64,000 nucleotides of DNA. It comes from Lindgomyces ingoldianus. Its lineage: Eukaryota > Ascomycota > Dothideomycetes > Pleosporales > Lindgomycetaceae. The stretch spans positions 99,060 through 163,059 of the forward strand of contig NW_022985233.1 in assembly GCF_010093535.1 (NCBI RefSeq), in the 5' to 3' direction. A program made the position numbers and the translations under genes. Shown here one piece after another: positions 20,901-64,000 of this stretch; position 1 is the stretch's first letter; every line of letters begins with the position of its first letter. The notes beneath the pieces are model-generated. The model was not told the DNA's origin and made no database searches. It saw nothing but the letters and a program-made list of their open reading frames with translations.

Positions 20901-22034
20901 GCTGTAGTGCTAACTCCAAGTCGTAATCGGCTTCATCCTGCTCAACCTGTTGGGCGAGTAATTGATCAAGGTCTTCTTGAACAACGGAGGCTTCTTACAA
21001 ATCCCCCACCGCCTTCTTTTCTGTCCTTCTCTCTGTAATTCTTCTTTTCCTCCTCACTCTATGGCAGTGAAGTGGTGCTCTTTACCTAAATTCCTATATT
21101 CTAATACGAGCTCAGCGCTAGAAAAGTGGAGAGGGCGAGGAGACAGCAGTCTTTTTTGAAGTACCCATGCACTAAAAGGCAAGGGAAATGCTTCTTCATC
21201 ATACTCGAGATAATGTTATTCCAATGCTTTAACGCCGTGAGAGCGACAATCCGGGCGGAGTTCGTCCGTGCTGGGTCATGCTTAGTTCTGTATTATTAAC
21301 GGGTTCGATTTCTTCCGAAAAGCTGTCTTAGGAATTCCAGGGGGGAGAAGTGGACACAAAGGTCATATAGGCATTTGAATTTTATATACCGGAAAGCTCT
21401 ACCATGGGTTGCCCAATCAACTTTGCGTTTGGTATCCTACAATTACTATATAAATCATATAGCTCCTCGAACCCTCAGCTCACAATACATGACTTCTCTC
21501 ATAACTCATGCCCCCTACAAGGCTACGAATACACATCTTCCTATTTTGAAGATTCAATTTCCCAGTCCGCCAAGTCATCATGGATAATGCATGGCATGTA
21601 GATGTCGCACGGGAAATGCCTCCAGCCCTATAAAACCAAGGAAAAGTCACGTGAATGAATATCTCCTGGCTGCTCGCCATGGCTCAACCTCCCCAGCCTA
21701 CTAGCAACGACCCTCTGCACTGTGACTTAGGGGATAAGTATATCAATATCGATGGCCGGTTCGATCAGGCTGAAAGAAGGGAAATCGATGCACAACGTGC
21801 GCAATGCCATCCAGCCACACGCCATGCTGCCAATAAGAAAAGACAATGTCCGCAAGCTAAACAAGGAGAGTTTGGGGGTCAAGACTGTCCTTCAAATGGT
21901 CTCCGCCCCCAACACACTTCGCAGTGCTCAAGCCCGGCAGGTTGACTAATCAGCTTTTTGGAACAAAAAGGCTCATTTGCGATAAGTTGACTCGTCAACC
22001 GTTGGGATCTGGGTAAACTCCGTTGCCTTGCGAA
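17949..22034. other. Gene-poor 4-kb region
   Basis: No intact gene is supported. Small open frames occur on both strands. The best candidate is a short two-helix membrane fragment at 20133-20363. Another small frame at 21752-21949 has no recognised match. Composition becomes AT-rich after about 20.3 kb. Confidence 0.4.
20133..20363 (-). pseudogene. Possible terminal exon of a membrane protein
   Basis: A 76-codon phase-0 stretch follows a good acceptor (TTTCTCTAG) and ends in TAA. It has two hydrophobic segments, 'TIMLAVAEGILCTYAVVKMVV' with one residue omitted at each side, and 'TSIAFIIALFVASVVV'. I could not find an upstream exon in a matching phase: the sequence before the acceptor reaches stops. 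It may be a relic of a multi-pass protein or chance. I do not recognise the family. Confidence 0.2.
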
Positions 22035-23449: not shown

Positions 23450-26159
23450 ATGGATGGGTTATATTCACGAGACGCTAAGGAGAATAGGATATGCAGATGT
23501 GAGCCCATTTAAATATAACTTTGTTTCGATAGGGCCAGAGAATTATATATAAGCAATAATTGTTAGTTACGCCATCTATAACTGTCACAGTTATCTAACC
23601 CGAGTCCCCTATGGGCTTGGCATCACGTATATAGGGTCTTCAGCCTTCATATCTCTGCCTCTGACCCTAAGGTTTACTCTCCCTTTGTACACCTATCCTG
23701 CATTCTCTCTCTGTGCCTCATGCTTCCTGTTCGATGCCTCTCGCAATAACCCAATATAAAGGAATAGACGCAGATAAATAGATCGAAATGAAAGAAAGTA
23801 ATAGAAAGGTATTTGCCATGCCAAAATCATCTACTAGGTTATCTATTTGTACGTACTCATCTTCAAATACCTTAACAGAAACAAACGTAATTCTACTGCT
23901 TTAACTTGAGGCTTAGTAGGTCTTTGGAGCTTTTTCTACTATCTTTACTTTCCTAGATACAATTACTCACTTTCGGCACCTCTCTGGCATCCGCGATGAC
24001 TCATCGCCTTTGTTACCACATGCTCATTGACCTTCTTGGGCTTGAAAACGATCTGGTGTGGCTAGTGAGGGCATTAATCGAAACGTTGATTATGGGACCC
24101 CTAGCATAGATTCATCCCAGACGTCGGTCCCCGCGATAGTTTTATTTTCAGAATATTGAGGTAGATGAGGCAGCGAGATTCCTAGCGCTATCCATTAAGG
24201 TGCAGTATTCTCTAGAAGTATCAGTAAGCATTTATAGCGGTGCCTCATATGGTCACTTCTGTATTGGGTCAGCGCTATAGATGTTGAGCGTTCCATTCAT
24301 TATTGCTCAAGCTTTCCAAAAAAAAAATAAGGGGGTTTTTTGGATTAGAGAACTTTGAAGCTTAGAGGTAGGCCATTGGAGAAGATCTTGGTAATCATCT
24401 ACCAGAAATTAGTCATTCGCAGCTAGTTGAAGTTCCAAGAATATCAAACATTTAGGTGTCTTTCAACTAGTGCCTCCAATTTTCGACTTATAATCGTATA
24501 ATGTCACGGTCGCCTTTCAGCGTCATTCCCGGTAGCAGCAGCACCCCATTTTGCCAGTTTCCTCACGGGATGGCGGTCATTTTCAGTTGGATAGCACGCA
24601 GCAGTGGTAACAAGGCTATTCGTAGGACCAAGTAGCTAGCCCGGTGTGCATTTCCGGAAACCCGAAAGCAGCCAAGCTGAGAAAACAGTTATGCCGAACA
24701 CGACTGAGCAAAGGAAACTGAGCACGGAATACCCAAATCAACACCAACGACCCATGGAAAGCAATAAACCCACCCGTGTGGGCTTATCTCGCGTTTAATG
24801 CGCGATTTCGAAGCCCTGTCCGTCGCTGTCGTACCATGTGATGCAATGGAAGAAAATAGCCTAAGATACGAGCCACCCCAGCGTGACGGAAGAAATGAAC
24901 TGAGTTATATTGATATGGAAGAGATAGCCAATAGGTCGACCCTTGTTCCGAACCAGCCTCTGGATCGCTCACTCGTTGGGCTTGCCGACGAGATGCCAGT
25001 CTTGTCCAATTTCGTAGCTGAACCATTACAGTGAGATGGTGGTAGAGCGCAGCACAGAGAGCAGAGATGAGACGTTACGGAAAATACCCCAAATTATGCG
25101 GAAGACCTCGTTTCCCAGAAAAGGCGCATTTGTAATAGAATTCGCGGCTTAACTCGTCCGGGGGGAGAATAGGCACCACGATGGAACTAAATACCCACTA
25201 GACTGGTCGCATAGGCTTCCAAGCCCATCTTCCAGAATCGGCGGGGATTTATCTGATGTAAGTGGCTACCGCTGTATTTTGAAATGATATTCTTATAGCA
25301 AGACACGTCTGCGAGGGTGATTAGCATGCAACTAGTAGTCATTAAAATTGGTCATTGTATAAGGTAAGTCGCATACCTATGAGGTGGAGTAAGTTACTTA
25401 ACGGGAAAGCCAACTGAATTGGTAGTACCGCAAAGGGATTGCTTGAAACTCCTTCGCCCACTCTTCTTCTTCTCCATCATTTTCACCATCCTTTCTAGCC
25501 TCTAGAACAGAAGTCAGCTCGTCTTTAGACAATAAACACGGCCCCTTCGAATGCTCACAGGGAGTTCTTAACGTCGCTATGGCACCTCTAACCATCATCA
25601 ATGGTATCCCACATTACTCACAGAAACTTTCTAGCTTCATTTTAAGGAGGCTAATTCCCTAGCAACTTTATACTAGTTTTATATGCCAACACTTGCCTGG
25701 AACCCATCTAATACTCACCAGGCGCTCACACACTACTCACCAATGCTCACTAGCACTCACCCACCATCGCTCTCGCTTATCATTGCCCTCATCCACCATT
25801 ACTGCTCACCTCAGTGCTCTCCACCAAGATTACTCCTAAGCAGGTAGGCAGAACCAATTGCTAGCGCATTAAACTACTTTTCTGTGCTTTGCTTACCCCC
25901 TATTAGTGACGCTGACAGGGACGAAATTCGTGTAGCTTTAACTCAAGATTAGGTAGTTATACTAAGGCAAAGTACAGGTAAGGGTAAGTGTTAGGGCAAA
26001 GGTAAGAAACGGCATATTAATATATATTTCTATTAAATAATCCAGAGATCAATCTACCCTTATCTAGCGCAATAAATATGCTGGATTAAAAACCTTTTAA
26101 AAAAAAAAAAAGTTCCGGCCTCAAGCTTTTGCGTTGTTGATTCAAGATCGATAGGAATA
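23450..26159. other. AT-rich gene-poor region
   Basis: About 2.7 kb without a supported gene. It includes short A/T and pyrimidine runs, and a stretch at 25715-25830 rich in CTCAC/ACTCAC words. The composition suggests mutated repeats, but no terminal repeats or polymerase motifs were recognised. Confidence 0.4.
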
Positions 26160-26445
26160 CGTGCACCACGAGTTAATCTAGATATATTGAATACCAAGCT
26201 CTATGATAAACAGCATGGCATCTCGAAAAGTACTCGGTATGATGTTCCATGAATTGTAGTCTTATAGTTCTCGAAGGTTGCGATTGCGTAGTGCATGTTT
26301 GCTTCTTTCCCCAACAATGACTTAGAACTACATACTCCGCGTCCCCATTGTCCGGCTCAAAAGGCCGAACCGTAGTTACTCTACCTTCTTTCCTCCAGAT
26401 TTCTAAACTCTCTTTGGCAATTGAGGTCCCGGGGTACTTTTTCAC
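26160..26445 (-). pseudogene. HET-domain gene remnant
   Basis: The first frame gives 'DAEYVVLSHCWGKKQTCTT', the start of a HET domain. About 20 codons later the match moves to another frame, 'WNIIPSTFRDAMLFIIELG', and then 'IQYI*INS'. In HET proteins this last motif reads YIWIDS, so TAG at 26178-26180 sits at the Trp position. A frameshift and a stop mean the copy is broken, and homology fades after INS. HET domains mediate heterokaryon incompatibility and cell death in fungi. Only the N-terminal half of the domain remains. Confidence 0.7.
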
Positions 26446-27351: not shown

Positions 27352-28748
27352 TTACGCCAATTCAACCTCAATAATCTTCTCCGGACCCCCCTCACAATCC
27401 TAAGTCTTTCTGATCTTCAACCCAACACTAGCAAGCAGCGTTCTCCAGTCGCTCTCAGTTATCTCTTGCGCAGCGTGACATATGAGCATCATCATATCCA
27501 CACTTGTTGAGAACTAGTTGGCATTAGTGTCTGGGATGACAATTTCGCTAAGAAGGATCTTGCTATATCCATTTTTCATGAGTGTAATTATGTTTGACAA
27601 TATCTTGCGGCATGAATCATCCGGCCAATCGTGCAAGATCATATGCAAGTAATATATTTTGGCATGCTCGACAGGTTGTGACGTGAAGAAGTCATGCGTC
27701 TGGGCTTGGATATCCTTCGGAAAGTCCGGGGCAATGGCTGAGATCGTTGCGGGGAGGTCCTGAAGTACCAGTTTCCAGGGTAAATTTGGGAAAGCGGCGT
27801 GGAAGTCAATGATATCGTGGCCGAAACTACCGCCGACGTCTACTATCAATATCTGCTCAGGGTCCGTGGGATAGTCGGAGATCTGAGGCACGTCAACGGA
27901 CCGGAACCGTCTCTTCCCGAGCGTCTTGAACTCCATGTGTGCTTTGAAGTTTTCCAAATCTTGCTCTTTTCCAGGTTGACTGATCTAGTCGAAATAGTGC
28001 AGGTCAGTTCCTATACCGTATTTAAACGGCGACTTGTCTTTGTTAGTGGGATTCTTACAGCCTGAATTCCGTAGGTATTCGGGGAGTTTGGCATGGACAT
28101 AGTTCATGTGATCGTAGCTTTTGTGCGGTCAGTGTCATGCTCACAATCGCCATTTCCGATGTGGGATAAATTACCAATTCTTCGTCATCCCTGCAGGAAT
28201 TCGAGAAGCGAGTGTAGCGGTGATAGCATTTGCAATGTACTCGTTCGGCCCTGTTTCCTTCACGAAGCCTGCAGAGCACAAGCGTTTCAAGAGACGTGCT
28301 GTATAAAATCAACAGGTGCGTTTTCTGCTTCGTGGGTGAACCCGATCTCACATAAAAGCACTGGGTCACAGCCTGTCATCTCCGCCAGTTTCTTCGAACT
28401 CTTGGGCGAGGCATCATCAGACATCATTGTCTCGAAGAGATTGAGGTCGAAGCCAATCTGTGTCGTGGCCCACCTTGACGGCTATCATGAAGTCAGGTCT
28501 TCATTGAGGTCGTGAAGCTTGTAGTCATAATTTGAGTTGCAAGGACTTACTTCGAGCTAGTTCATTTTTGCAATGACTTCAAATGGAGACTGCAGAGCTA
28601 CTACAAGATTCTGTGCAGACTCTAAGAGGGCTTTTCGTGCCTCCTCATTTCCTGCGCCATTCATCAGGCTTTCACCCTTGGTGTTAACATCCTTCAGCAA
28701 AGGGATAATGTCTGGACTCGGGGCAGTCCTAATAGAGATCGGAAACAT
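27352..28748 (-). pseudogene. O-methyltransferase (PF00891 type) with four in-frame TAG codons
   Basis: Four exons (28748-28551, 28481-28352, 28298-28175, 28117-27352) join through introns of 69, 53 and 57 bp with good splice sites, and the frame closes at TAA 27352-27354. The predicted product is about 405 aa, normal for fungal SAM-dependent O-methyltransferases. The dimerisation part has 'GNEEARKALLESAQNLV' and 'CSAGFVKETGPNEYIANAI'. The SAM loop is 'LIVDVGGSFGHD', and the catalytic His is in 'HMILHDWPDDS'. The only lesions are TAG at 28557-28559, 27985-27987, 27514-27516 and 27400-27402. From memory of the family these are Trp positions (for example MN-W-LEP, FD-W-ISQP). There are no frameshifts and no TAA or TGA. 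It is either a RIP-type mutated copy or a gene whose UAG codons are edited in mRNA. Confidence 0.8.
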
Positions 28749-62071: not shown

Positions 62072-64000
62072 ATCTCTGCATGATGGCCACTACTTATCCT
62101 AACAGACCTTCTACAGTTTGGCTTGGGAGGAATAGTTGCTGCTATGGTCCATTGCTCTCGAGCAATTATCCAGCGCGAAGCTTCTGCTGACAGCTCTCTT
62201 GATCAGAAGATATGTGCCTGTTGTCAAGGCGACTTCCAAGATTCCATTACGCCAGTCAAATTTGATAGTTGCCCACAGCTGATGCGAGAGGATGGAACCT
62301 GCTTGCACGTGGAAGATATACAAACTGTTTGATGTGGTCAAAGCAGTCTATCCTTGATGGTAAGTGTACGCTATCCCTGGCCTAATTTAGGCTCTCAACT
62401 TACATTAAGAGGAGATATTGTGGACCCTTCCAAATTCGAATCATGTCTATTTCGCACCGGATAGGCTTGACAATACGTTCCCAAGTGAAATGGCCACAAC
62501 GGCGCTGACAGAATCTGATAAGAAGAAGAGCATAGATCTAGAGTCAGACTTCTCAACAAGCAAGTTTGTGGCTTTTCTAAGTTTCAACTGGGCTTGGATG
62601 ATTATCTATTTAGGTTAGTAACCTTCTTGTGTAGGTTTAACACGTCCTAAATAGGCATAGCCCTTCTATTTTGACATTGAAACTTGACTTGCTTGTTGAC
62701 AAGTCTGTCTGAAGCACCAAGACAATTTTATTCCTCTAGGCAACCAAGTTCGTTCTAGCTATGCCATTCTGTGGGAAGTTAGTAGACCCTAAAACAAATG
62801 CAAAAGGATATAAATAAGGCTTCATATTAACCAAGTCCTCGTTCTTGATTGTGTCCCTTGGCTATATATCAATATTTGTCCTAGAGAATTGTGTGTACAC
62901 TCACTGGGAGTCCTCAGTGTCATTTAAGATGTCACTTGGCGTTTGGCTGTTACGCCATTGAGGTGGTCGCTATTGGGGATTACGAAACGGCTTTGGAATT
63001 GCGTAGATATCCAGCTTGTCTAGCAAGGCATGATGTGTGGTTTCATTGGGGGCTGTGGTGATCAGAGCCGTGTTGGAGCTACCAGAGGAGAGTTATAGAA
63101 TATGGAATGCGGAAATCAGGGTAAGGGCATGTACAGTGAGGTACAGGTAACCTCCCCACTAACGTCACAACCCGACATAGTTCATTCAATCTCACCACGT
63201 ATGTACAATCTCTCTCGTCTACTCTGCCATCTCCTTGAATGAGACCAATTGGTCACGACTGATATTTGACCTGCTCGCAAGAGCTGCCCATCAAAACAAA
63301 GCAACAGACCACTTCTGGAAAGCGGGGTTAGGTTGTTAGCGGAGCACGCACGTACCATGTATATTAGTCTATTGAGACACGGCTGATGAAACAATTTATA
63401 TAAATTATTATCGCATACAATTATCCGCCTATATATATCCTTCTGCTGTGCTAGCTAGAAGGTTAACGTTTTAGTAACGTAATAATTATTATACTACTCT
63501 TCTTTTTATAAACTAATAGTCTCTATTAGCAGTACTTAAAAGTAGTAGTTAAAGCTAATTTAAATAAGATAATAATAAATAACTTTTACTTTCTATACTT
63601 TGTTATCTAGTAAGTTTGTAGAAGCTTAATTATCTCTTCTAGATTTCTAAACTAAAATTAGTTTAAATTAGCTAGGTATCTAGGCTTTAAGTATTTCTGT
63701 CCGTACGCAGCAGCAGCGTCGCGGCCTGGATACGAGCGATCGCGCACGAGCAGGATCACGTATCTATGTCACATGATGCTTGTGCGCGAACCTCTGTGCA
63801 CAAACATCTAGATATCCCCTTTTTCCTTTATATAGAGGAAAGACAAGAGTAATAGAACTAAAAACATGTTACTCTTACTTTACCTACTTTATACACTATA
63901 CACACTGTACACTACTCTTACTTTTACTACTTAAGTGCTTATACTATAAGCAGCTAGCTATTAGAGCCTATTTAACACTAATTAGTAGTTAATTTAATTA
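62072..64000. other. AT-rich distal region
   Basis: No gene is supported. A frame at 62418-62618 ends at 'LSFNWAWMIIYLG' and looks like the start of a membrane protein, but I cannot extend it. From about 63380 the sequence is extremely TA-rich (many TTA/TAA/TAG words) except for a GC island at 63700-63790. This is the composition of heavily RIP-mutated repeats. No telomeric repeat is present at the window edge. Confidence 0.45.

Follow-up and report, generated by a model that had tools for sequence, protein, structure and literature searches.

An O-methyltransferase gene interrupted by four TAG codons

The window analyzed here is a 64-kb stretch of DNA (C72:99060-163059) from the 68.4-Mb genome (99 contigs) of Lindgomyces ingoldianus (Pleosporales, Dothideomycetes). 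On its minus strand, at 28748-27352, it carries a PF00891 O-methyltransferase gene of four exons and 405 amino acids (Table 1). The coding sequence is 1218 nt long (406 codons including the final TAA) and is interrupted by introns of 69, 53, and 57 nt, whose splice sites were picked by eye and are GT..AG in all three cases. Four TAG codons are the only internal stops in frame, and the frame closes without any frameshift. The four-exon model, the TAG coordinates, and the statement that neither TAA, TGA, nor a frameshift accompanies the TAGs had been proposed from the sequence alone, and all of them were confirmed. The same holds for the four Trp codons described as still TGG (codons 70, 265, 315, and 375) and for the roughly ten untouched Gln codons, of which we count 12 intact CAA/CAG. 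The longest open piece (156 aa) matches PF00891 with a score of 52.4 bits against the curated cut-off of 22.3, and the nearest solved structures by sequence are MpaG' and LepI.

Two remnants of HET-domain genes lie 1-6 kb from the O-methyltransferase gene. The one at 26157-26391 also matches Pfam, with a score under the cut-off. Neither Rfam nor tRNA scanning of the 64-kb window returned a match. A short element of ~100 nt is found at 63698-63799 of the window; when 40 of its 1506 first-look candidates in the genome were scored, 39 of the 42 matches were copies with 91-100% identity.

Table 1. Coordinates of the features described in the text. Numbers without a contig prefix are window positions.
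Feature	Location	Strand	Details
O-methyltransferase exon 1	28551..28748	-	ATG at 28748-28746
O-methyltransferase exon 2	28352..28481	-	
O-methyltransferase exon 3	28175..28298	-	
O-methyltransferase exon 4	27352..28117	-	holds the PF00891 match; final TAA 27354-27352
TAG codon 64	28557..28559	-	Trp in nearest homologs
TAG codon 195	27985..27987	-	Trp or Tyr in nearest homologs
TAG codon 352	27514..27516	-	Trp in nearest homologs
TAG codon 390	27400..27402	-	Trp in nearest homologs
HET-domain remnant	26157..26391	-	two reading frames; TAA 26264-26262, TAG at conserved Trp 26180-26178; tblastn with intact HET proteins
Second HET-domain remnant	21087..21591	-	TAG 21543-21541 (not a Trp site), TAA 21218-21216; tblastn with intact HET proteins
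Second O-methyltransferase L020	C20:218376-218672		two Trp-to-TAG (R-W-MLHD-W) and a frame change
P450 L049	C18:1149070-1151665		two TAGs, no other visible lesion
P450 L051			TAG at apparent Trp
P450 L053			TAG and TAA
P450 L044			TGA, little other damage (by eye)
P450 L048			TAA, little other damage (by eye)
FAD monooxygenase L117	C19:1092041-1094389		one apparent exonic TAG
FAD monooxygenase L122	C31:319385-321475		one apparent exonic TGA at apparent Trp; little other damage (by eye)

Tryptophan at the TAG sites and constraint on the protein

The nearest homologs of the gene come from Lophiotrema, Pleomassaria, Corynespora, and Polyplosphaeria and share 56-64% identity with it. In the six closest (P0001-P0006), codons 64, 352, and 390 correspond to Trp in every protein and codon 195 to Trp in five and Tyr in one, so the expectation of Trp at all four sites held save for that single Tyr. 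Beyond these six the residues vary. Over all 112 aligned homologs, Trp occupies codon 64 in 31 of the 74 having a residue there, codon 195 in 54 of 111 (Tyr in 26), codon 352 in 48, and codon 390 in 75. One of the retained TGG codons, 265, is itself odd, with Gly in 83/112 homologs and Trp absent from the eight commonest states, and codon 221, where Trp is conserved in homologs, encodes Arg. The window gene has in common with fungal PF00891 O-methyltransferases the domain and the His-Asp-Trp motif, the Trp of which (codon 315) is present in 112/112 homologs. It differs from them in its four TAGs and in the changes W221R, G265W, P329T, N341S, and R370I at invariant sites.

The branch leading to the gene is of ordinary length (0.27 versus a median of 0.3). 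Within codons 152-405, these five changes fall among 49 columns that are invariant in 18 near homologs, while its branch length would predict 0.74 (P 0.0010); keeping homolog P0014, a protein that likewise differs at 5/49 invariant columns, raises the expectation to 0.93 (P 0.0026). When 46 homologs are the reference, the gene comes first of 47 at the 100% columns (3/17) and at the 95% columns (5/35) and sixth at the 90% columns (5/52). The relaxation signal thus varies with the comparison chosen. None of the five altered residues (0/5) reflects a TpG/CpA-type change. The altered invariant residues point to a loss of function, though not beyond doubt.

Dead HET-domain genes of the same genome

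In a survey of the genome for HET-domain genes, 150 of 181 candidates were scored, giving 142 matches, 38 of which (L057-L094) contain premature stops, most commonly TAG. All 38 were taken up, together with 22 stop-free HET sequences, 20 of the latter serving as queries. The alignments hold 90 stops, and for 36 the ancestral residue could be identified: Trp had become TAG in 10, the commonest identified lesion, TGA in 2, and TAA in 2, Gln had become TAG in 6 and TAA in 3, and 13 were of other kinds. Under stricter voting, the rates per conserved site were 8/103 for Trp to TAG and 7/86 for Gln to TAG or TAA, and such equal rates are as expected of TpG/CpA-to-TpA decay. Other conserved sites of the HET genes with stops were changed as well (Cys to TAC/TAT 3/52, Met to ATA 2/36), compared with 0/46 and 0/20 in 20 HET genes picked as stop-free. 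On these lesion counts and per-site rates, Trp-to-TAG is a normal product of decay in this genome, and the Gln changes indicate that the other strand is struck too.

The TpA/ApT ratio is 0.58-1.23 in HET genes with stops and 0.53-0.94 in intact ones. Since the dead HET genes mostly have a low RIP index, a low index is compatible with decay of this kind. The HET pseudogenes resemble the O-methyltransferase gene in their frequent Trp-to-TAG changes and mostly low index, but many of them mix TAG with TAA, TGA, or frame changes, whereas the O-methyltransferase gene has TAG only.

The Trp preference of the lesions

If four nonsense mutations struck the gene at random, all four would be Trp-to-TAG with a probability of 3.5e-6 to 4.7e-4 (transition bias 1 to 8); counting CpA/TpG transitions only, over 8 Trp and 12 Gln codons, a hand calculation gives P ~0.014 for the same event. 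These values overstate the case because the gene was chosen for its odd look. At columns conserved in at least 75% of homologs, TpG/CpA-type changes affect 4/7 Trp sites versus 1/40 other susceptible codons (Fisher 0.0009), and at 90% columns 2/5 versus 0/23 (P 0.026). Trp-to-TAG occurs at 4/8 Trp sites of the O-methyltransferase gene against 8/103 in the HET pseudogenes (P 0.0045), which, unlike it, show no Trp preference. We nevertheless discount this preference, since it was this very pattern that singled out the gene, and dead genes are many in the genome; in our view chance, aided by such selection, placed all four stops on Trp.

Other genes with premature stops

A second O-methyltransferase, L020, combines two Trp-to-TAG changes with a frame change (Table 1). 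For P450 genes, 92 of 242 candidates were scored, yielding 104 rows; 21 rows contained stops and 20 of these were inspected. For FAD_binding_3 genes, 18 of 76 candidates were scored. In the sugar transporter and MFS surveys, too few candidates were scored for use (9/352 and 9/546). In P450, FAD, and sugar transporter loci, exonic and intronic stops were told apart by eye from splice-like sequence. On this basis, exonic stops were found in five P450 genes (L049, L051, L053, L044, and L048), and the remaining P450 stops were judged intronic or at the edge of a match. Two FAD monooxygenases, L117 and L122, each have one apparent exonic stop; solved homologs have Phe at the site in L117.

P450 L049 has two TAGs as its sole visible lesions. 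Its first TAG corresponds to Trp in 118/120 homologs, the other two being its own public protein, gapped there, and one with Arg; its second TAG corresponds to Trp in the two nearest species and in 16/120 homologs overall. The public protein from the same species, P0113, is identical to L049 except for a start that is 22 residues longer and for 26 and 11 codons skipped round the TAGs. In L049, 1/39 invariant columns are altered (21/120 rows have at least one), as are 7/120 columns conserved at 95% (9/120 rows reach that) and 21/174 at 90% (4/120 rows). By these alignments constraint on L049 may have eased too. For this gene the preference for Trp is weak, at P 0.056, a value for which codon 213 was assigned to Trp by hand.

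The TAGs of the two TAG-only genes are often preceded by AC: 4/6 read ACTAG (28559-28557, 27987-27985, and 27516-27514 in the window, and the second TAG of L049). AC also precedes the TAG of L051; it stands before only 2/16 of the kept Trp codons listed and 0/10 HET sites.

Weighing the origins of the TAG codons

DNA mutated by RIP has a TpA/ApT ratio raised, and a (CpA+TpG)/(ApC+GpT) ratio lowered, past threshold values. The sequence-only reading had offered RIP-type C-to-T change at CpA as one of two explanations. The kind of change stands: all four stops are CpA-to-TpA on the template strand (TpG-to-TpA), a type common in the dead HET genes. Strict RIP lacks support. The RIP indices, which were to be computed over the region, are not high: the coding sequence has 0.58 for TpA/ApT and 1.34 for (CpA+TpG)/(ApC+GpT), not RIP-like by these thresholds, and 2-kb blocks at 22-30 kb range from 0.73 to 0.99 and from 1.16 to 1.23. 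A search of the genome for a DNA-level duplicate of the gene matched only the gene itself, the two best-scoring paralogs are 33% identical over 299 residues and 37% over 233 residues, and no internal repeats of at least 25 nt were found within 18-31 kb. Because of the low indices, the missing second copy, the distant paralogs, and the lack of internal repeats, strict RIP is not supported, even though every lesion has its signature on the template strand. That classical RIP struck the gene, perhaps via a duplicate since lost or by leakage from nearby repeats, would fit this signature, the two DNA methyltransferase genes of the genome (counted by position, not assigned to Dim-2 or RID), and the TpA/ApT peak of 0.99 close by at 24-26 kb. 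With a single-copy gene, such indices, and only 1/40 other susceptible conserved sites changed, we regard it as improbable. Decoding of the TAGs as Trp by a suppressor tRNA or by read-through, to which the uniform TAG stops could be attributed, is the least credible of the explanations and is given hardly any weight: TAG terminates 1/12 of the long open frames examined in the window, and the dead HET genes mix TAG with TAA, TGA, and frame changes.

The other explanation put forward was A-to-I editing, in which the four UAGs would be turned into UGG by a Tad2-Tad3 type mechanism in sexual tissue and the gene would be functional there, as in PUK1. Fungal A-to-I mRNA editing is described for Sordariomycetes and for Pyronema, a Pezizomycete, in both cases in sexual tissue (PMC11156358; Pyronema also PMC5381528). 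For Aspergillus nidulans and Botrytis cinerea, no editing on a genome-wide scale was identified, and which fungal classes have editing is left open by the review (both PMC11156358). In the literature accessible to us, we found no published report of A-to-I mRNA editing for Dothideomycetes. The window gene has in common with Fusarium graminearum PUK1 and ~70 premature-stop-corrected genes (PMC4817773, PMC11156358) UAG within a frame that is otherwise open, where Trp would have to be read. It differs from that class in being known from DNA alone, in its Dothideomycete host, in TAGs outside predicted hairpin loops, in the lack of an MV pair in the examined Ame1-type protein, and in its lost invariant residues. 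Of the edited sites in Fusarium, 62% lie in hairpin loops (and >70% of the sites edited at >=60%), with a base bias at +2 to +4 and a preference for U at -1, G at +2, and purines at +3/+4 (PMC4817773). None of the four O-methyltransferase TAGs (1/6 including P450 L049) falls in a predicted loop in a 61-nt window, compared with 142/500 (28%) UAG triplets drawn from 56 sequences of this genome and read on the stored strand; were the true rate 0.62-0.70, 0/4 would have P 0.02-0.008. The flanks fit poorly as well (G at +2 in 1/4, purine at +3 in 1/4 and at +4 in 0/4), while U at -1 of the edited A is automatic with TAG. The contact between Ame1 and Tad3 is reported to have arisen in Sordariomycetes, with a KN to MV change as a critical step (PMC11087585). 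The genome has three DUF726 (Ame1 family) genes, L028, L029, and L030, counted by position, and the Ame1-type L028 has AKV, not MV, at the Tad3-contact site, which was located from its spacing to the nucleophile Ser, independently of the Fusarium sequence; this placement could be one residue out. Across 120 listed DUF726 homologs (own protein included), the site reads AKY in 90, AKV in 7, AKN in 5, and otherwise in 11, and 7 are without the motif. L030 has ALA where L028 has AKV.

Editing of the known kind is disfavoured by the hairpin, flank, and lineage tests, less surely by the Ame1 site, and further by the five altered invariant residues and by L049 itself deviating somewhat at conserved columns. 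What survives of the proposal is TAG at Trp, and only there, in a frame without other lesion, together with the Ame1-family genes and a public protein P0113 that, by skipping codons round the L049 TAGs, resembles what the literature describes for edited Fusarium genes. Because of the Trp preference over the HET yardstick and the TAG-only L049, we keep editing as an unlikely explanation that deserves some weight. A bolder version appears to us a shade less probable still: that UAG-to-UGG editing takes place in the sexual tissue of L. ingoldianus with a site specificity different from the Fusarium one (no hairpin loop, often ACUAG). Such editing would restore the O-methyltransferase at four sites and, at two, the P450 at C18:1149670, and fungal A-to-I mRNA editing would then have arisen a third time.

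Probable decay of a single-copy gene

We favor, with a probability of about 0.7, the reading that the O-methyltransferase gene is a single-copy PF00891 gene of L. ingoldianus, once functional, now released from constraint and decaying. It rests on Trp in the nearest homologs, the excess of change at invariant residues, the HET remnants alongside, and dead HET genes with the same type of lesion. L020 also speaks for it, as do L044, L048, and L122, in which a stop of another kind stands in a gene that otherwise looks little damaged. The TAGs would have arisen from TGG when C at a CpA of the template strand changed to T. This appears to be one of the main sources of nonsense codons in the dead genes of L. 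ingoldianus, and the full-length enzyme would probably no longer be made. Against decay stand the concentration of changes at Trp sites (4/7 versus 1/40), the absence of a frameshift in 1.2 kb, the ordinary branch length, and the TAG-only L049. Two signals of similar strength, each with P ~0.001, oppose each other here: the preference for Trp and the relaxation. The decaying pseudogene is preferred because the structural, flanking, and lineage tests oppose editing of the known type and the selection of the case discounts the Trp preference.

If this is ordinary decay, Trp-to-TAG changes alone are no sign of editing where dead genes often decay at TpG/CpA, and the HET pseudogenes provide a per-site yardstick for editing claims. 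If editing were true instead, fungal mRNA editing would reach the Dothideomycetes.
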